Virus record (IMG/VR): IMGVR_UViG_3300035703_000260
Coordinates: 1 to 34,862 of that record
DNA: 34,862 nucleotides
DNA from: a virus
Direction: 5' to 3' (one strand)
Part shown: piece after piece, positions 118-29,829 of the stretch
How positions within the stretch are numbered: position 1 is the first letter of the stretch
Layout: every line of letters begins with the position of its first letter
Made by a program: the position numbers and the translations under genes
The notes under the pieces: generated by a model
Told to the model about the DNA's origin: nothing
The model's input: the letters and a program-made list of their open reading frames with translations, nothing else
Databases searched by the model: none

Positions 118-407
118 TGCATTGGGAAGATTCGTCGGGGAACCCGATTAATGTCACCGGATATTCCGCTCGTATGCAGGTTCGTGAACGGTTCGTGTCG
201 GCGACGCCGGTGCTTAGTTTGGTGTCACCGACCAACATTGCTTTGGGTGGGAGTTCCGGGACTGTAGTTGTGACTGTGTCAGCAACAGCGATGGCTGGTG
301 TCGCTGCCGGCGATTACGTGTACGACTTGGAGATGGTTGCGAGTAATGGTGTCGTGACGAGGCTTTTGCAGGGGACGTTCAAGGTTCGTCCTGAGGTGAC
401 TCGATGA
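54..407 (+). CDS. Baseplate/tail-associated structural protein (BppU N-terminal-like)
   Basis: This 117-residue protein sits directly upstream of the collagen-like fibre and overlaps it by ATGA. Its opening ([17 protein letters not shown], then a Val-Thr-Gly-Tyr-x-Ala-Arg-Met block) and its end ([14 protein letters not shown]) match a small beta-rich protein commonly found beside phage fibre genes, resembling the N-terminal part of BppU-type baseplate proteins. It has no signal peptide or membrane segment. The ATG at 54 follows the previous stop (51-53) directly, with purine-rich AAGAAGGG at 39-46 as ribosome site. The likely role is attaching the fibre to the tail tip; that role is inferred from position and family resemblance. 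The first 64 bases are repeated at the right end of the window. Confidence 0.7.
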
Positions 408-3376
408 GTGTTGACTCCAACGATGAACCGTATGTGGTGGTTGTCGATGAGACCGTCAACACGGTTGTTGTCGAGGATGCGTCGAATACGGTTGTTGTTG
501 AGCAGCTGTCGAATGAGGTGACTGTTGTTGCTCCTGGTGCTGCCGGAGCGCTCGGATATTACGGGGCGTTTTTCTCCGATCAGGATCAGCAGGCCGCAGC
601 GATCAATACTGCGACTGCGATGACGTTGAACAACACAGCTGAGGCGAACGGCATCAGTATTGTTTCGAACTCGAGGATCACGTTCGCCTATCCGGGCACA
701 TATGATCTGCAGTTTTCTGCGCAACTGCATCATCGTGGTGGTGGCGGCAACGGTCTTGAGATCGATATCTGGTTGGCGAAGAATGGTACGCCGGTTGCTG
801 ATTCGGCAACGAAACTGGTGATCCCGAAGAACGAGTATCAGGTTGCAGCATGGGATTTCCTGCTGACAGTCGAGGCCGGCGACTATCTCGAACTCATCTA
901 CCGGGTGACGAACGTCGACATTGTTCTTGAGCATGGTGTCGCTGACGGCGTACCGGTTGACACTCCGTCGTTGATTGTGAACGTGATGCAGGTTATGTAC
1001 ACGCAGGTTGGGCCGCAGGGTGCGACTGGTGCTCAGGGTGCGCAAGGTCCGCAGGGTGCGACCGGTACCGGTGTGACGATTCTCGGTTCGTATGACACCT
1101 ATGCGGAGTTGATTGCTGCTCATCCGACCGGGAATCCTGGTGACGGGTATCTGGTTGCCGGCGACCTGTATGTGTGGAGCGCTGTCAACAACATGTGGGA
1201 AAACGTCGGGAACATTGAAGGCCCGCAAGGACCACAAGGTGCTCAGGGTGCTCAGGGTCCTCAAGGTGCGCAGGGAGCTCAAGGTGGCCAAGGTCCGCAA
1301 GGTATCGCCGGGCCACAAGGATCTACAGGTGCTCAAGGACCTCAAGGTGCGCAGGGACCTCAAGGAGCACAAGGATCGCAGGGGGCTCAAGGTGCAACCG
1401 GGGCGCAGGGTGTTCAGGGTGCGACCGGTGCGCAAGGACCGCAAGGCGATACAGGCCCCCAGGGTGCTCAAGGTGCGACTGGCGCTCAAGGTGTTCAGGG
1501 TGCAACTGGAGCACAGGGACCACAAGGAGATACGGGTTCTCAGGGTGCTCAAGGTTCGACCGGTGCCCAGGGACCACAAGGAGCACAAGGCTCGACCGGA
1601 CCGCAAGGCCCACAAGGTGATACCGGCCCACAAGGTGCTCAAGGAGCAACCGGTGCTCAAGGCGCTCAAGGTGCGACAGGAGCACAAGGGCCTCAAGGCG
1701 ACACGGGTCCGCAGGGAGCGACTGGCGCTCAAGGACCTCAAGGTGCTCAGGGCGCTACCGGCCCTCAAGGACCCCAAGGAGACACTGGCGCTCAAGGCCC
1801 TCAAGGCGCAACTGGTTCTCAGGGTCCTCAAGGAGCTCAGGGTGCGACTGGTCCTCAAGGACCGCAGGGTGACACTGGAGCACAAGGACCACAGGGAGCG
1901 CAAGGAGTCCAAGGCGCTACCGGTGCTCAAGGCCCACAAGGAGCGACTGGTGCCACCGGCCCTCAAGGCCCACAAGGCGATACTGGAGCACAAGGACCGC
2001 AAGGCGCGCAAGGCGCAACTGGTGCGACAGGACCTCAAGGACCACAAGGACCCCAGGGTGATACTGGTGCTCAAGGACCTCAAGGCGCTACCGGGGCACA
2101 AGGCCCACAGGGTGCTCAAGGACCACAGGGCGCTCAAGGTGCACAAGGACCCCAAGGGGCACAGGGAGCTACTGGATCTCAAGGACCACAGGGTGCTCAA
2201 GGCCCGCAGGGTTCAGCTGACTCGGGGACGCTAACCACAAAAGGCGATCTGCTTACTCGTTCTTCGAGTGCGTTGGTTCGTTTGGGTGTCGGCTCGAACG
2301 GGGATGCGCTTCTTGCTGATTCAGGCACTACGGAGGGTTTGCGTTGGCAGGGTCAACAGATCGCCGGCAAGAACAAGATTATTAACGGCAATATGCAGAT
2401 TGCTCAGCGTGGCACATCGTTCACCTCGACTGGCGGCGCGAACAACGACGATACCTACAATCTTGATCGCTGGTATGTGCTGTCGGACGGTAACGACGCC
2501 GTTGATATCACTCAATCTACGGAAGCTCCGACTGGCGGGTTGAACTCGATTGCTTTAGATGTTGAGACGGTCAACAAGAAGTTCGGTATCGCTCAGATCA
2601 TTGAGCAGAAGAACTGTATCGGTTTGATTGGTGAGACGGTCACATTGTCGTTCATGGCAAAAGTGTCCTCGACAACGAAATTGGACAATGTGAAAGCCGC
2701 CATCATCGCCTGGTCTGGTACTGCCGATACGGTGACGTCGGATGTTGTATCAGCGTGGGGTGCTGAGGGGACAAACCCGACATTGGCGTCCAGCCTGACT
2801 TATGAGAACAGTCCGGCAAACCTGAACGTGACGACCTCTTGGGCAAGATACTCGATCACCGCTGCGGTGGATACAGCCTCGACAAAAAACATCATTGTGT
2901 TCATTTGGTCTGATGTGACTGACACAACGCTCGGTGACTTTCTGTATATCACCGATGTGCAGTTAGAATACGGGTCAGTGGCAACACGGTTCACTTCTAA
3001 TTCTGGTACTTTTCAGGCTGAACTCGCGGCATGTCAACGATATTTCTGTAAATCATTTCCGTTAACTGTGATTCCAGCCAATAACGAATCTTCTGGGAGC
3101 ATCGCCGTATTTTTTAATACGACTTTGGGTAACAATTATTCTGAAATAATTACTTATCCAGTACAGATGCGCGCCACACCGTCAATTACTTTGTATAACC
3201 CTGGGAATGGGACTGCGAACTCCTGGATTACATACAACAGCTCTACAATAATTTCAAGTGGAGATACTGGTGTTAGCGCAAACAATATTAACGAATACTC
3301 GTTTAGAGGCTATAAGGCATCTTCGACGACTATTACTTTTGCGGATGCTCAGTGGACGGCAGCGATTGAATTATGA
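404..3376 (+). CDS. Collagen-like tail fibre / receptor-binding protein
   Basis: This 990-residue modular fibre is the most repetitive gene in the genome. Residues 1-45 are Val-rich with imperfect repeats. Residues about 50-205 look like a C1q/TNF-type beta-jellyroll ([13 protein letters not shown] onward). A short Gly-X-Y stretch follows, then a small globular module around residues 225-270 ([20 protein letters not shown]). Residues 273 to about 605 are roughly 110 uninterrupted Gly-X-Y triplets, mostly GPQ, GAQ, GAT and GDT. The C-terminal 385 residues begin [20 protein letters not shown] and contain [17 protein letters not shown], a signature seen in other phage fibre tips. The collagen part should trimerise into a rod and the tip should contact the host. 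The last 400 bases are visibly more AT-rich than the rest, suggesting exchange of the tip. Start ATG 404 overlaps the upstream stop. Confidence 0.88.
1220..2212 (+). repeat. Tandem Gly-X-Y coding repeat
   Basis: About 110 tandem 9-bp units encode the collagen-like rod. Codons are varied (GGT/GGC/GGA, CAA/CAG, GCT/GCG/GCA), so the repeat is stronger in protein than in DNA, which should reduce recombination between units. The low stop-codon density of this repeat creates long spurious reading frames on both strands. Confidence 0.9.
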
Positions 3377-3650: not shown

Positions 3651-4424
3651 ATGATCTCGGTTGTCACTTGCACCTATAACACTCCGCATGATGTGCTCGC
3701 TCGAACCTGGGCCAGCCTAAAAGCTCAAACCTATCAAGACTGGGAATGGGTCATTATTGACGATTCACCGGGCTGGGATACGTGGAGGCAGATGTACGGT
3801 TTCTGCGCTGACGAGCGGTTCAAAGCGAGGATTTATCGTGCGCATGTGCCTTCGGGCGGGAATATCGGTCAGGTGAAACATGATGCGTTCATGCTCGCCT
3901 ACGGTGACATTCTTGTTGAGCTTGATCATGATGACGAGTTGGTTCCGACCGCGCTCGAGGTGATCGCTCAGGAGTTCCAGGCTGGCGCAGAGTTCGTGTA
4001 TTCGGACTGGTGTGAGATCCTTCCGGACGGGCAGTCGGGTCGTTACCCGGAAGGGTGGGCTTTCGGGTATGGGGGCGAGTATTGGGCTGATGATTTGCAG
4101 TTGTGGGTGATGAAAGCGCCAACGATCAATCGCACGACGTTGAGCCATATTGTGTCTGCGCCGAATCATGTTCGAGCCTGGTCGGCTGACCTGTATCGGC
4201 GTATCGGCGGTCACAACATCAATTTGAGCATCGCTGACGATTACGAACTGGTGGTTCGGACAGCGTTGGAAACAGATCTTGTGCATATACCGAAAATGCT
4301 GTATAAACAGCATATTGGTAGTCATACGGCTCAAAGGCAAAGAAATGCGCTCATTCAGGCTTTGGTGAGGAAGATCAGCGACGAATACTCGGAGCGGCTG
4401 GACGCAAAGTTCGGTTCTTTGTAA
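3651..4424 (+). CDS. Family 2 glycosyltransferase
   Basis: This 257-residue GT-A-fold glycosyltransferase begins MISVVTCTYNTPHDVLART, the classical GT2 N-terminal beta strand and nucleotide-binding start. It continues with WVIIDDSPGWDTW and has the metal-binding acidic cluster ELDHDDE at residues 90-96, followed by an acceptor-domain segment (FVYSDW). No membrane segment is visible, so it should be soluble and use a host sugar nucleotide. It lies 3' of the fibre genes and apart from the other glycosyltransferases at 24-27 kb. Fibre or other tail proteins are the natural candidate acceptors, though that is inference. Ten bases separate it from the upstream stop, with only a weak ribosome site. 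Confidence 0.85.
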   Translation: MISVVTCTYNTPHDVLARTWASLKAQTYQDWEWVIIDDSPGWDTWRQMYGFCADERFKARIYRAHVPSGGNIGQVKHDAFMLAYGDILVELDHDDELVPTALEVIAQEFQAGAEFVYSDWCEILPDGQSGRYPEGWAFGYGGEYWADDLQLWVMKAPTINRTTLSHIVSAPNHVRAWSADLYRRIGGHNINLSIADDYELVVRTALETDLVHIPKMLYKQHIGSHTAQRQRNALIQALVRKISDEYSERLDAKFGSL

Positions 4425-10560: not shown

Positions 10561-10650
10561 ATGTATTTCGCCGGCCTGATCGTCGGATCAGTCATCGGTG
10601 CACTCTCGGTGCTGATCGCCGGATTCTTCATCGATCATCGGGACAGGTAA
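10561..10650 (+). CDS. Tiny membrane protein
   Basis: This 29-residue frame (or 33 residues from GTG 10549) encodes one glycine-containing hydrophobic span (FAGLIVGSVIGALSVLIAGF) ending HRDR. GAAGG at 10551-10555 precedes ATG 10561. Its stop overlaps the start of the WhiB gene (TAATG). It lies between two confident genes and fills the gap exactly, which supports it. Confidence 0.5.
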   Translation: MYFAGLIVGSVIGALSVLIAGFFIDHRDR

Positions 10651-10958
10651 TGGCGTTGATTGACACCGACACTATTGATCGCAGTTTCATGAACCGAGCT
10701 GCCTGCAAAGGGATGGACCCGGAAATGTTCATGCCTGTTCGAGGAGAAAACCTGAAGATTCGAGCAGCGAAAGTGATCTGCAAACAATGCCCAGTCCAAT
10801 CAGAATGCGCCGAATACGGGTTGCAGCTCGCCATGATCTACGACACCCACGGCATTTTCGGTGGACTCACCAGATCGGAACGGGAAACGATCCTGCGTGA
10901 ACGAGGACGAAAAATGGTGACCTGGAGCGGCGCACGATTGAAGAAGGTCCCTCAGTGA
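10650..10958 (+). CDS. WhiB-family iron-sulfur regulator
   Basis: This 102-residue protein has the four WhiB cysteines: Cys19 (RAACKG), Cys44, Cys47 and Cys53 (ICKQCPVQSEC), which bind a 4Fe-4S cluster. The G-[IV]-x-G-G-x-[TS] signature follows (HGIFGGLT), then a basic C-terminal segment (RERGRKMVTW). WhiB proteins are confined to Actinobacteria and their phages, where they bind the housekeeping sigma factor and redirect or block transcription. It is therefore strong host evidence. It overlaps the resolvase-like gene through GTGA. Confidence 0.9.
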   Translation: MALIDTDTIDRSFMNRAACKGMDPEMFMPVRGENLKIRAAKVICKQCPVQSECAEYGLQLAMIYDTHGIFGGLTRSERETILRERGRKMVTWSGARLKKVPQ

Positions 10959-12518: not shown

Positions 12519-12991
12519 AAGCCAACACACTCACCCAGGTCGCGTTGATCGCCGGGATCGCCACCGCCGCCACCGCCATCTACGTCGGTGTTTCCGCAGA
12601 CCCGGAACCGCAGATCATTCGTGAGGTCGTCTATCTGCCGGCGCCAACCACCTCGAGCACATCCACCACAACAACATCCACAACCACCACCACAACGACG
12701 CTTCCCCCGAAGCCTGCTGCACCAGCGAAATCACAGTTGGTCCGCAAAGTTGATGAGATCTACCCCGGGGCTTCCGAAAAGTATGGTGCCGCAACAATTG
12801 AGAAGGCCGGAAAGTTCGCCTGCAAACGATGGAACGAAACCCAGATCACCCGACTCAACGTCATCCGGGATGTCATGGAATACGTCAGCATCGATGATCT
12901 CGGATTCGGTCACGCTGTTGCTGAAGCTGTCGTCTGGACGATCTGCTGGGAAACGACATCATTCCCGAACGGCCCAAGAGAGTACCGATGA
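12515..12991 (+). CDS. Membrane-anchored or secreted protein with Thr-rich linker
   Basis: This 158-residue protein has an N-terminal hydrophobic signal or anchor (LTQVALIAGIATAATAIYVG). A linker of almost only Thr and Ser follows at residues about 46-64, ending LPPKPAAPAKS. The C-terminal domain contains KFACKRW and AVVWTICWE, two cysteines that could form a disulfide outside the cell. Thr runs ending Leu-Pro-Pro are frequent in exported proteins of Acidimicrobiia, a weak host clue. Function is unknown; surface modification or superinfection exclusion is possible. AGGAGG upstream supports ATG 12515. Confidence 0.62.
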   Translation: MKANTLTQVALIAGIATAATAIYVGVSADPEPQIIREVVYLPAPTTSSTSTTTTSTTTTTTTLPPKPAAPAKSQLVRKVDEIYPGASEKYGAATIEKAGKFACKRWNETQITRLNVIRDVMEYVSIDDLGFGHAVAEAVVWTICWETTSFPNGPREYR

Positions 12992-13500
12992 ATCGTTTCG
13001 TCGCTGTCGTCAACCCGACATTCACCCAGGCACTCTGCAAACAGCATGACAACAACCTCTGGTTTGATGCTGACACCCAGAAAGAGGCGATCAGCATCTG
13101 CCAGACATGCCCAGAATTGGAAGCCTGTCGCACATATGCGCTGACATTGCCGGTGGACACGGAAGGGGTGTTCGCCGGCCTCACAGCCAAACAACTGAAA
13201 CCATTACGCAAAGCAAACAACAATCCGCCCGTCATCGACCACGGCACACCAGCTGGGTATGACCAACATAAGCGACATGGCATCCCAGCCTGTCAAGCCT
13301 GCCTACAAGCCCACGCCGGATACAAAACCGATCGCATCAAGGAATACAAACGACGTCAGAAAAACACTGTGCCCGGCAACTTCGAACACGGAACAGCCTC
13401 CGGATACACCAAGCACTACCTGTACGGCATCCCTGTTTGCGACGACTGCAAACGAGCCAAAGCCGAATACATGCGCAAACGGTACACACCGAAAAACTAA
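12988..13500 (+). CDS. WhiB-like protein with two C-terminal zinc-knuckle-like repeats
   Basis: Residues 1-75 are a WhiB-type domain with Cys17, Cys38, Cys41 and Cys47 and a GVFAGLT signature. Residues 85-125 and 134-170 are two copies of one unit: HGTPAGYDQHKRHGIPACQA and HGTASGYTKHYLYGIPVCDD, each with His residues and a Cys-x2-Cys pair followed by a basic helix. Each unit could hold zinc and bind DNA. A usual WhiB is 80-120 residues, so this 170-residue form is a fusion of an iron-sulfur regulator with an extra nucleic-acid-binding module. It immediately precedes the replication gene. Confidence 0.78.
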   Translation: MNRFVAVVNPTFTQALCKQHDNNLWFDADTQKEAISICQTCPELEACRTYALTLPVDTEGVFAGLTAKQLKPLRKANNNPPVIDHGTPAGYDQHKRHGIPACQACLQAHAGYKTDRIKEYKRRQKNTVPGNFEHGTASGYTKHYLYGIPVCDDCKRAKAEYMRKRYTPKN

Positions 13501-13521: not shown

Positions 13522-16257
13522 ATGGCAGCAACCATGAGCACCCTCGACGACGCACTCCATTACGCCACCCTCGGCTTCCATGTGATCCCCATCAAACCCG
13601 GCCAGAAACATCCTGGTATCCCACAATGGCAAGACATCGCCAGCAATGATCCGGACACGATCCACAGCTGGTGGACAGGCCAATACAGCAACTATGGGAT
13701 CGGGATCGCACCACGACAACTCGGCGACAAATACCTGTTCGTCATCGACATCGATGAACATGATCCGGCGCAGTCAGGCTCCGACACACTCAACCAGCTC
13801 GAGAACACTCACGGTCCCCTACCCGACACCGTCACCTGCCTGACACCATCCGGCGGACGGCACCTCTACTACTACGCCCCACACCCGATCCTTAACGATC
13901 AGTCAGGGAAGTTGGGTGTCGGCATTGACATCCGAGGTATCGGTGGACAAGTGCTCTGCCCACCAACATTGCACCCTGAACTGCACAAGCCGTATCTGTG
14001 GGAGTTGGACAGGGAACCGGGCGTGTATCCGATCGGAGACGCCCCCCAATGGCTCCTCGACATGCTCACACCCAAAGAACCAGTCAAAGCCCCCAGAATC
14101 GAAAATAGAGGCATCTGGGACGAACTGGACGACAGTCCAGCAGCCAGATACAACGCGAGCACAACCTGGCAGCAGCTCCTCGAAGCGGACGGCTGGAAAC
14201 TAGACCGCACGGACCAAACCGGGGAACAACACTGGACCAGACCAGGAAAAGACACTCGAACCGGCACATCAGCCACCGTCGGATATGACGGGCGAGACAT
14301 GCTCCGAGTCTTCACCTCGAGCCTCCCCTGGCTCCCCGAAGGCGCCTACAGCAGATTCGGATACACGGCCTGCAGCCAGCATGGAGGCGACAGGCAAGCA
14401 TTCGCTCGCACACTCATCAGCCAGCCAGAAGCCCCCATCATGACCGCCACCGCTGTCGACGAACCATGGCCGCCCATCATCCCGTTACACACCAACCTCA
14501 CACCACCCGCATTCCCCAAACACGTACTGCCCAGTTGGATCACCAACCACACCCAGCAGATCGCCGACGACATCCAAGTCACCTACGACCTACCAGCCAA
14601 CCTCGCCCTCGGCGCACTGTCCATCTGCACCATCGGCAACACCACCATCCACTACCCACGGCAACGATGGACCCAACCACTCAACCTGTACATCGCCGTC
14701 GCCCTCCCACCCTCCGCCGGCAAATCACCCGCCAAAAACGCGATCTTCAGACCGCTCGAGGAATATGAGCAAGAAAAACTGCAAACAGCGAAACAGAATC
14801 GAACACTCGTCGACTCCGACCGCAAAACCCTCGAAAAACGCCTCCGAGACTTGGAAGACAAGAAAGCCCGCGCAACCGGCCCAACTGACGAAATCGATAG
14901 CAACCGATATCAAACCATCCTCGACCTCGCCAACCTCCCCAACCCGCCAGCCGGAAGACTCCTCGTCGACGACGCCACCACCGAAGCCCTAGGACAAACA
15001 CTCTCCGACAACGGAGGAGCAATCGCCGTCGTCAGCGCAGAAGGCGGCCTCTTCGACCGCATCGCCGGCATGTACAACGACGGCACAGCCAACCTCGACC
15101 TCTATCTAGAAGCCTGGTCCGGTGGCAGATACATCGTCGACCGCATCAAACGAGAATCAATCCAAATCCCCAACGCCCACCTCTGCATCACCACCACCAT
15201 CCAACCCCAAACCTTGGATGAGATCGGAGCCCGCAAACAATTCGCCGGCCGAGGACTCACAGCACGATTCCTCCTCACCCTCCCCCAATCCAACGTCGGC
15301 ACCCGCAACCGGCTCGCCCACACCACCGGCAACACCCAAGACGAACAGCTCTACAACCAGACAATCATCAACATCGCCCGCCAACACCAAACCACCAAAA
15401 CCCAGCTCACCATCGACGACCAAGCATCCGACATGTACGCCAACTGGGACCAGCAACTCGAAAACCAGCTAGCCCCAGACCAGCCGCTCGAACATCTCGC
15501 AGAATGGGTCGGCAAACTCCGAGCCAACGTCCTCCGACTCGCCGGCCTCCTCCACATCGCCTGGCATCAACCAGGCACCAGCATCAACCAGCAGACAATG
15601 GCCGACGCCATCGAACTCGGCAACTACTACCTTGACCACATGCTCACCATCAGCGACCGATGGGGCGTCGACGAAACCACCGCCAAAACCAAAAAGATCG
15701 TCGACTGGATCTGCCGCACAAAACCAGCCAGCCTCACCATCCGAGATCTCATGAGACACAACCGCAGACTTCTCAACACCGCTGATGAAACCATCCCCAT
15801 CCTGCAGCTGCTCATGGACAAGGGGTACATTCGAGCGAACTTCGAAGGCCCGATCCTCCTCGGGCAGCGAGGCAAAACACCCCAAGAGTTCACCATCAAC
15901 CCCACCCTGTGTGACGAACGTCAAATGTCACCAAATGTCGCGCAACCGCTCGAGGAAATGTCGCGCCATGTCACCGGAGCAAATGTCGCGCATGTCACCG
16001 GGAATTTAAATGTCGCGCATGTCGCGCATGTCACCGGGATTTTGGAGCAAAAACAGCCCGAACCTGTGGATAACTCAGGGGAACCTGTGGATAACTCAGA
16101 TGAAATGTCGCGCATGTCGCGCATGTCGCCTAAGGGGGGAATTGAACACTCCCTCTCTTTAGAAGAAAAAGAAACTAAACCCCCCACCCCCGGTGACATG
16201 GGTGACATGGACGACATTTCCATCCGGGCCATCCTCACCCTCCTCGAAGACGACTAG
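13522..16257 (+). CDS. Primase-polymerase / DUF3987 helicase fusion
   Basis: This 911-residue protein carries an N-terminal bifunctional primase-polymerase domain (residues about 5-175): ALHYATLGFHVIPIKPG, the catalytic Asp pair in VIDIDEH (residues 74-80), GGRHLYYY near 111, and VGIDIRGIGGQVLCPP. A linker leads to a DUF3987 domain from about residue 330, with a P-loop-like ALPPSAGKSPAK near 394-405 and an acidic region VVSAEGGLFDRIAG. The order primase then helicase is typical of self-sufficient phage initiation proteins. Residues 800-900 are low-complexity (NVAHVTG, EPVDNS and EMSRMS repeats) because the underlying DNA holds an origin-like repeat cluster. Start may be 13522 or 13534; neither has a strong ribosome site. 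Confidence 0.85.
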   Translation: MAATMSTLDDALHYATLGFHVIPIKPGQKHPGIPQWQDIASNDPDTIHSWWTGQYSNYGIGIAPRQLGDKYLFVIDIDEHDPAQSGSDTLNQLENTHGPLPDTVTCLTPSGGRHLYYYAPHPILNDQSGKLGVGIDIRGIGGQVLCPPTLHPELHKPYLWELDREPGVYPIGDAPQWLLDMLTPKEPVKAPRIENRGIWDELDDSPAARYNASTTWQQLLEADGWKLDRTDQTGEQHWTRPGKDTRTGTSATVGYDGRDMLRVFTSSLPWLPEGAYSRFGYTACSQHGGDRQAFARTLISQPEAPIMTATAVDEPWPPIIPLHTNLTPPAFPKHVLPSWITNHTQQIADDIQVTYDLPANLALGALSICTIGNTTIHYPRQRWTQPLNLYIAVALPPSAGKSPAKNAIFRPLEEYEQEKLQTAKQNRTLVDSDRKTLEKRLRDLEDKKARATGPTDEIDSNRYQTILDLANLPNPPAGRLLVDDATTEALGQTLSDNGGAIAVVSAEGGLFDRIAGMYNDGTANLDLYLEAWSGGRYIVDRIKRESIQIPNAHLCITTTIQPQTLDEIGARKQFAGRGLTARFLLTLPQSNVGTRNRLAHTTGNTQDEQLYNQTIINIARQHQTTKTQLTIDDQASDMYANWDQQLENQLAPDQPLEHLAEWVGKLRANVLRLAGLLHIAWHQPGTSINQQTMADAIELGNYYLDHMLTISDRWGVDETTAKTKKIVDWICRTKPASLTIRDLMRHNRRLLNTADETIPILQLLMDKGYIRANFEGPILLGQRGKTPQEFTINPTLCDERQMSPNVAQPLEEMSRHVTGANVAHVTGNLNVAHVAHVTGILEQKQPEPVDNSGEPVDNSDEMSRMSRMSPKGGIEHSLSLEEKETKPPTPGDMGDMDDISIRAILTLLEDD
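15925..16217 (+). other. Candidate replication origin: iteron cluster plus DnaA boxes
   Basis: ATGTC occurs twelve times in + orientation between 15925 and 16127 (15925, 15935, 15958, 15968, 15983, 15992, 16010, 16019, 16028, 16105, 16114, 16123), many 9-10 bases apart. It is mostly within ATGTCGCGC or ATGTCACCGG. Three inverted copies (GACAT) follow at 16195-16199, 16204-16208 and 16213-16217. Two perfect DnaA boxes (TGTGGATAA) lie in the middle at 16065-16073 and 16086-16094. Short AT-rich patches are at 16001-16011 and 16157-16179. Iterons, DnaA boxes and AT-rich DNA inside an initiator gene recall the lambda origin within gene O. Function is inferred. Confidence 0.6.
16060..16100 (+). repeat. 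Two 21-bp direct repeats each holding a DnaA box
   Basis: The unit GAACCTGTGGATAACTCAG occurs twice with a 21-base period, close to two helical turns, so both TTATCCACA boxes would face the same side of the DNA. In protein it encodes EPVDNS twice. Confidence 0.8.
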
Positions 16258-17023: not shown

Positions 17024-17052
17024 ATGACCCCGGCTCTTTTCCTTTTTATATA
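17024..17052 (+). promoter_or_regulatory. Putative promoter of the terminase/head operon
   Basis: ATGACC (17024-17029) and TATATA (17047-17052) are 17 bases apart in a 139-base gap that is unusually T/A-rich near its end. It precedes the terminase small-subunit gene and would drive the whole late block. The rest of the gap (16946-17023) holds a G-run (GGAGGGGGG near 16985) and no gene; a packaging site is conceivable there but not shown. Confidence 0.35.
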
Positions 17053-17084: not shown

Positions 17085-17399
17085 ATGTTGAACCGAGAAG
17101 CAGTCGAACAAACTGTCGGAGCTTTGCAATCCGACGGCAAACTGCGCCCAGAACACGCAGCACTTGTAACAATGGTTCTCGGGTTAGCGTCAAGCGTTGA
17201 CGTTGAACCGCAGAACGCATCGTTGTGGCGTGAGTTTCGTGCAGCGCTGGAAAGTTTGAGACAGATCGCATCGGAGGGCGAAGAGAATGAAGACGAGATC
17301 AGCGCCATCATCGCGGCGCTCAGAGGCGCAGCCCAGGTACGCAACCCCGAGAACTCCAAGCCGGTTAACGCTCGGCCCCGAAGTCGAAAAACTGGCTGA
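17085..17399 (+). CDS. Probable terminase small subunit
   Basis: The 104-residue protein is helical: REAVEQTVGALQSDGKLRP, then LASSVDVEPQNASLWREFRA, and a basic tail (NARPRSRKTG). The segment with Pro-x-Asn-Ala-x-Leu-Trp-Arg-Glu resembles small actinophage terminase subunits. Position directly upstream of, and 113 bases overlapping with, the large subunit supports it. It would recognise the packaging site. Its own ribosome site is poor; two mini reading frames (17052-17072, 17069-17083) lie just upstream. Confidence 0.65.
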   Translation: MLNREAVEQTVGALQSDGKLRPEHAALVTMVLGLASSVDVEPQNASLWREFRAALESLRQIASEGEENEDEISAIIAALRGAAQVRNPENSKPVNARPRSRKTG

Positions 17400-18720: not shown

Positions 18721-18865
18721 GCGTTGGTTTGGTTCAATGTTGCAGGTTGCAGGGTTGGGTGTTGCGTCATGGTCGGCGTTCATGCTTCATCCGAGTGCTG
18801 GTGGGCTAGTCTTATCCACAGGACTGTTGATATTTGGGTTGGCTATCGAGAAGTCAGGTGACTAG
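18713..18865 (+). CDS. Small membrane protein between terminase and portal
   Basis: This reading frame starts at TTG 18713 (or ATG 18737), overlaps the terminase stop, and ends in a TAGTG overlap with the portal start. It encodes about 50 residues with two hydrophobic stretches (GLGVASWSAFML and GGLVLSTGLLIFGLAIE). It fills the terminase-portal gap exactly. No ribosome site of note. It contains a perfect DnaA-box sequence at 18812-18820, likely by chance. Confidence 0.45.
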   Translation: MIKRWFGSMLQVAGLGVASWSAFMLHPSAGGLVLSTGLLIFGLAIEKSGD

Positions 18866-29448: not shown

Positions 29449-29829
29449 ATGGCTGGCTCTCCCAACGTTGAAATTGAAGGTTTGAATAAGCTTCTGCGAG
29501 CGTTGGAAAAACTGGATGAGGCCGCCAAAGATAACTTGAAAGAGATCGGGTACAAGGTCGGTGAACTCGTCGCTCAGCAGGCTCGTGAAGAGGTTCCTGT
29601 GTTGTCGGGGGCTTTGCGTGGGACGATCAGGCCGGCGAGGTCGGCTCGAGGTGCGAAGGTTCGTGCCGGTTCAACTCGGGTGCCGTATGCGGGTCCGATT
29701 CATTTCGGGTGGCGTTCCCGGAATATTCGTCCGAACCAGTTCTTGTATCGGGCTGTGGATAAGAATGTGGATCGTGCCCTCGACATGTACCTTGAAGAGG
29801 TGTACAAGATTTGGAATAGGAACGTCTGA
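29449..29829 (+). CDS. HK97 gp10-like tail completion protein
   Basis: The 126-residue protein has the signature VEIEGLNKLLRALEKLDEAA, QQAREEVPVLSGALRGTIRP, and VPYAGPIHFGWRSRNIRPNQ to FLYRAVDKN. This is the HK97 gp10/minor tail completion family, which usually sits just before the tail tube gene. Here it lies between the chaperone and tape measure. It begins three bases after the frameshift product's stop. Its stop overlaps the tape measure start. Confidence 0.8.
   Translation: MAGSPNVEIEGLNKLLRALEKLDEAAKDNLKEIGYKVGELVAQQAREEVPVLSGALRGTIRPARSARGAKVRAGSTRVPYAGPIHFGWRSRNIRPNQFLYRAVDKNVDRALDMYLEEVYKIWNRNV

Follow-up and report, generated by a model that had tools for sequence, protein, structure and literature searches.

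A putative iteron/DnaA-box replication origin translated as the tail of its own PrimPol-helicase initiator gene in a virus record

The repeat array at the 3' end of a primase-helicase gene in an IMG/VR virus record is, on our reading of its sequence, very probably a phage replication origin that doubles as coding sequence for the C-terminal tail of its initiator. Most likely, it is an iteron/DnaA origin that lies within a gene and is recognised by that gene's own product. We computed its repeat architecture, DNA conservation, position across lineages and enrichment in DnaA boxes, together with the predicted domain order of the initiator.

Genome Context and the Initiator Gene

The window, by which we mean the whole stretch of DNA analysed, is the 34,862-base virus record IMGVR_UViG_3300035703_000260 of IMG/VR. 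It carries a 117-base end repeat and is therefore probably a complete circle. Two WhiB-like transcription factor genes (10650-10958 and 12988-13500) point to an actinobacterial host, and a tail-fibre gene at 404-3376 bears long collagen-like repeats with 9- and 27-nt periods. A scan of the large ORFs of the window returned no match to a stand-alone DNA polymerase, and to that extent an earlier suggestion of a phage without its own polymerase holds. An HNH/small-terminase-like ORF lies 3' of the array, and TerL starts at 17287.

The array makes up the final ~110 codons (the last 330 bases) of the initiator gene, just beyond the conserved domains (Table 1). The match to the PHROG DNA helicase profile (5e-77) ends at residue 796, before the tail, and the encoded C-terminal tail is floppy and of low complexity. 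A replicative-helicase ATPase domain is present according to Pfam and PHROG, with an MCM-like fold suggested by an AF2 model of residues 315-800 that is of moderate confidence (mean pLDDT 65). The best alignment of this model was to MCM helicases (SsoMCM, Z 14.3, with the second aligner only), and a Foldseek search with it gave no match at E ≤ 0.001. As modelled, the fold is like that of MCM helicases carrying a winged helix at the C terminus, and a C-terminal dsDNA-binding domain is predicted in the form of a winged helix directly 5' of the array (order helix-strand-helix-helix-strand-strand; local pLDDT ~80). Published predictions assign helicase function to DUF3987 where it is fused to primases, and origin reading to winged helices (PMC5862659). 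Pfam matches were confined to PrimPol and DUF3987, with no homology to lambda O or SPP1 gp38. NCBIfam gave no match to the initiator, and PDB sequence searches with the protein or with an alignment found no relative.

Table 1. Positions in the window of the initiator gene, its domains and the elements of the array.
Feature	Position	Strand	Evidence
PrimPol-helicase initiator gene, 911 aa, array in 3' end	13522..16257	+	Pfam PF09250 1e-37, PF13148 4e-87
PrimPol (archaeo-eukaryotic primase) domain, residues 11-177	13552..14052	+	Pfam
DUF3987 helicase domain, residues 352-711, predicted MCM-like AAA+ fold	14575..15654	+	Pfam; AF2 model vs SsoMCM
Predicted winged-helix domain, residues 718-792, candidate iteron reader	15673..15897	+	AF2 model
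Distal iteron block, nine direct ATGTC copies, ATGTCRC core	15925..16032	+	sequence
DnaA box 1, TTATCCACA, extended GTTATCCACAGG	16065..16073	-	perfect match
DnaA box 2, TTATCCACA, extended GTTATCCACAGG	16086..16094	-	perfect match
Core palindrome: left iteron arm, G-run, AT-rich loop, C-run, right inverted arm	16102..16220	.	inverted repeat
Proximal direct iterons, three ATGTC, 9-nt spacing, palindrome left arm	16105..16127	+	sequence
AT-rich 40-nt segment, 28/40 A/T, candidate DNA unwinding element	16140..16179	.	sequence; mostly unpaired in fold
Three inverted iterons, 9-nt spacing, in palindrome right arm	16195..16217	-	sequence

Anatomy of the Array

Within 293 nt (15925-16217) the array holds 15 copies of ATGTC or its complement GACAT, 12 direct and 3 inverted, spaced mostly 9-10 nt apart. 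Elsewhere in the window, no 293-nt stretch has more than 5 copies, and the window mean is 0.68. A preliminary description of this DNA had given the same count and coordinates, the 9-10 base rhythm, three inverted copies closing the array and two perfect TTATCCACA boxes 21 bases apart, all of which we recovered. It had not described that the inverted copies form the right arm of a palindrome with an AT-rich loop inside. The arms of this palindrome (16102-16139 and 16183-16220) are separated by 43 nt. Folded as a single strand, the core (16100-16222) forms an iteron-paired stem around the AT-rich loop, at -29.5 kcal/mol and z -6.95. Folds of the corresponding single-stranded DNA in related loci, compared with shuffles, gave z -8.3 in L002, -4.9 in L016 and -3.9 in L015, with a weaker value of -2.7 in L017.

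The Array Across Wider Relatives

An alignment search of viral contigs yielded 63 related loci. Among the complete-gene loci, which come from metagenomic phages and form 13 protein clusters, the densest short-repeat stretch is the 3' end of the PrimPol gene in 10 clusters, and three have no clear repeat maximum there; these lineage counts are not fully independent, because some loci are close relatives. The iteron word itself differs across lineages: ATGTCGC, CATGTCA, CATGCGCGC, GTACGCATG, GGGAACCAC, GCGCCCC, TGACGCA, CGGCACA and TGTCCCC. Within the DUF3987 class the order of elements is kept, with direct iterons followed by an AT-rich segment with CTCTCTCT or similar, CCCCCCACCCCC and inverted iterons, and both palindrome arms bear the same lineage-specific word, that is, they change together. 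Relatives with an AAA_25 helicase and no DUF3987 often have iterons plus a palindrome with iteron ends, the array lying in the coding end of the gene or just 3' of it.

Nine annotated phage and plasmid records with related proteins were also fetched. In eight of these (Albanese, prophiGD12-2, NatCom_43819, P7132, Javan191, a Streptomyces plasmid, Dulem virus 32 and a Tsukamurella plasmid) repeats peak in a stretch whose centre lies 94-170 nt past the gene end and which in most cases surrounds AT-rich DNA; only Judy departs from this. The arrangement in these eight is intergenic, just after the stop codon, whereas the array of the window lies inside the frame. In the Tsukamurella plasmid the first three repeats are coding (GQKGQKGQK) and the remainder follow the stop, a layout that, from its sequence, is possibly intermediate between coding and intergenic arrays.

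A search of genome contigs with the initiator protein and with an alignment found no relatives. Of two DNA patterns searched, TGTCRCCTAAGGGGG added only five unrelated contigs to those known, and CCCCCCACCCCCGRTGACA returned only contigs already known. Five related contigs (L013, L014, L016, L025 and L027) terminate inside or just past the array, probably because assembly broke at repeats or hairpins. The viral contig L011, which is not otherwise related, has TTGTCACC/GGTGACA repeats running both ways around an AT-rich stretch at ~4027-4041, with a DnaA box nearby, and this could be another origin of similar style.

DnaA Boxes

Perfect DnaA boxes were counted in 19 related contigs, in which a 600-nt zone spanning the PrimPol gene end amounts to 1.8% of the sequence. 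Fifteen of the 19 boxes found fall at the gene end, a density ~200 times that elsewhere; the binomial p of 3e-23 is too strong, given that there are close relatives among the contigs. At least one perfect box lies near the gene end in 9 of the 19 contigs. The other 10 have none there, so DnaA is not universal. Away from the gene end, boxes occur only in the window and its near-identical relative; the window has two, at 18812, between the TerL and portal genes, and at 29754. In the array of the window, the clustered consensus boxes adjoin the AT-rich element, as in DnaA-assisted origins.

The exact tandem DnaA-box pattern had no match in viral contigs. The stretch that contains the tandem boxes (16063-16097) matches mostly noncoding DNA of Klebsiella and Proteus phages in 18 records, which suggests, at the sequence level, that tandem DnaA boxes occur in unrelated phages.

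GC Skew, the Genome End and Alternative Functions

The largest minus-to-plus GC-skew step of the genome lies no more than 1 kb from the gene end in 14 of 19 contigs and is absent from its vicinity in five (contigs without end repeats were treated as circles). Gene orientation does not explain the step, because all large genes share one direction. The switch falls 0-1 kb past the gene end, close to a putative physical genome end. In one clear case, both ends of a near-identical contig, G001, map to 17029-17039 of the window, 0.8 kb past the array; given these positions, skew alone cannot separate an origin from a genome end. The interval 17029-17039, between the HNH/small-terminase-like ORF and TerL, is likely a physical genome end (cos), and the end of G001 shows the apparent start of a sequencing adapter.

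Repeats ~1 kb before the terminase large-subunit gene, with a small-terminase-like ORF after them and a physical DNA end suggested nearby by G001, might instead be a cos or pac site, to which terminase binds for packaging. We consider this very unlikely. The array tracks the PrimPol or helicase gene rather than terminase and has other neighbours in prophiGD12-2 and P7132, the Streptomyces plasmid and the Tsukamurella plasmid segment share the layout with no terminase annotated in the stretches examined, and DnaA boxes are unexpected in such a site. Less probable again is a regulatory or partition site, such as an autorepressor operator, an attenuator hairpin or centromere-like repeats. Inverted repeats and hairpins are known from sites of this kind and the array does lie at a gene end, but the DnaA-box enrichment, the AT-rich loop and the consistent linkage to PrimPol/helicase genes fit an origin better, and the larger ORFs that were scanned included no recognisable partition gene.

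Selection on DNA and on the Encoded Tail

We simulated the array 20,000 times with the protein fixed and synonymous codons redrawn from the initiator gene's own usage. At least 15 ATGTC copies arose in 0.005% of simulations and two DnaA boxes in none (maximum one), and the 147 repeated 9-mer pairs of the array compare with a simulated maximum of 72. Array and boxes are far beyond chance even with the protein held fixed.

The iterons of the window fall in phase 0, where they encode MS, and in phase 1, where they encode HV or NV. Two or three reading frames are used by the iterons of each coding-embedded lineage examined, and one DNA word yields MSR, HVA or GDM depending on frame or strand. TAAGGGGGGAA is kept in L013, and in L015 it recurs as TAAGGGGGGAAT, read in another frame. 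Two relatives, L001 (93% identical to the window in the best segment) and L002 (64%), retain the DNA words, DnaA boxes and core with a changed peptide; the comparison proposed in the preliminary description, a search for relatives with conserved DNA repeats and drifting protein, thus came out favourably. In L002, whose gene body is 73% identical, ~50 consecutive nt of the core are identical, the HVAHV peptide is absent with the DNA words still present, and the two DnaA boxes stand in opposite orientations. Between the window and L001 we counted 124 silent and 38 replacing changes in the body, compared to 3 silent and 11 replacing in the tail (Fisher p = 6e-5), and the comparison with L002 shows a similar shift from silent to replacing changes in the tail (p = 9e-4). 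Indels in the tails of relatives add or remove whole codons, which indicates continued translation of the tail.

Judged from these alignments, selection in the tail acts on DNA rather than on the peptide, as had been suggested earlier, with iterons in two frames and silent changes unusually rare. The converse, that the low-complexity tail is selected for its peptide and the DNA repeats are a by-product, is scarcely credible and the least probable of the readings considered: the open frame, the whole-codon indels and the frame-preserving 9-nt spacing agree with it, but the same word encodes three different peptides, L002 loses the peptide repeats and retains the DNA words, silent changes in the tail are depleted relative to replacements, and codon-preserving simulations reproduce neither repeats nor boxes.

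A Proposed Mechanism and Its Implications

The proposal of a hybrid iteron/DnaA origin in a PrimPol phage is supported, in that the architecture recurs in further lineages, built on another word, and boxes are concentrated at the gene end. We infer the binding, melting, loading and priming steps as follows. The PrimPol-DUF3987 protein would bind the ATGTCRC iterons via its C-terminal winged helix, and host DnaA would bind the two GTTATCCACAGG boxes and aid melting or loading. The AT-rich segment between the inverted iteron arms would open, possibly as a hairpin or cruciform, with helicase rings loading on either side of it. The PrimPol domain would then prime and a host polymerase would extend, since no phage-encoded polymerase was found.

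More broadly, PrimPol actinophages may possess a class of 'translated origins', in which the origin has been absorbed into the initiator frame, reader and origin form one cassette, the word turns over rapidly (~nine words), the arms change with the reader, and DnaA recruitment is gained or lost; we regard the prospects of this generalisation as evenly balanced. For uncultured phages and plasmids, the origin reading offers an origin-finding rule, namely to inspect the 3' end of the PrimPol/initiator-helicase gene. It would also provide a natural series of initiator-iteron pairs with differing words for coevolution studies, and such pairs could serve as mutually compatible replicons for actinobacterial vectors. 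A single DNA stretch would be able to act as coding sequence and origin simultaneously.

Comparison With Known Systems

Origins within initiator genes are known from lambda, whose ori lies inside gene O (PMC6022878), and from SPP1, whose oriL lies inside gene 38 (PMC6316719); as in the window, iterons and an AT-rich element sit within the initiator coding sequence. Lambda O and SPP1 gp38 are not PrimPol-helicases, however, and recruit a separate helicase loader and helicase, and the iterons of the window differ in lying at the very 3' end of the gene, in opposed arms on the two sides of the AT-rich core. The parallel to lambda gene O drawn in the preliminary description is therefore apt for position and fails for protein family, where the SaPI/SCCmec initiator helicases and pRN1 are closer. 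According to excerpts of its description (PMC4234260), pRN1 requires a stem-loop just after its PrimPol-helicase gene orf904; it differs in being an archaeal plasmid with an SF3 helicase and a noncoding stem-loop, and the excerpts report neither DnaA boxes nor iteron arms. We found no description combining iterons, an in-gene origin and a prim-pol in the open-access literature, although such a description may still exist.

SaPI Rep and SCCmec Cch2 each use a C-terminal domain to recognise iterons that lie just 3' of their own genes, and the repeats bound there by Cch2 are direct (PMC7581432). They share with the window an initiator helicase, a C-terminal DNA-binding domain (predicted in the window) and iterons at the 3' end of the initiator's own gene, and their primase is encoded alongside or fused, as in the window. 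Multiple short repeats likewise follow directly after the helicase-winged-helix region of the window. The SaPI/SCCmec origin is intergenic, after the stop, whereas the array of the window lies inside the frame and includes DnaA boxes, and the helicase family is DUF3987 in the window compared to DUF927 or D5 in SaPI/SCCmec. An origin inside the initiator gene (lambda, SPP1) or at the end of a PrimPol-helicase gene (pRN1, SaPI/SCCmec) is thus already known. What is new is the combination, a putative inverted-iteron, DnaA-box origin that in its entirety encodes a PrimPol-helicase tail and whose iteron word turns over rapidly across lineages.
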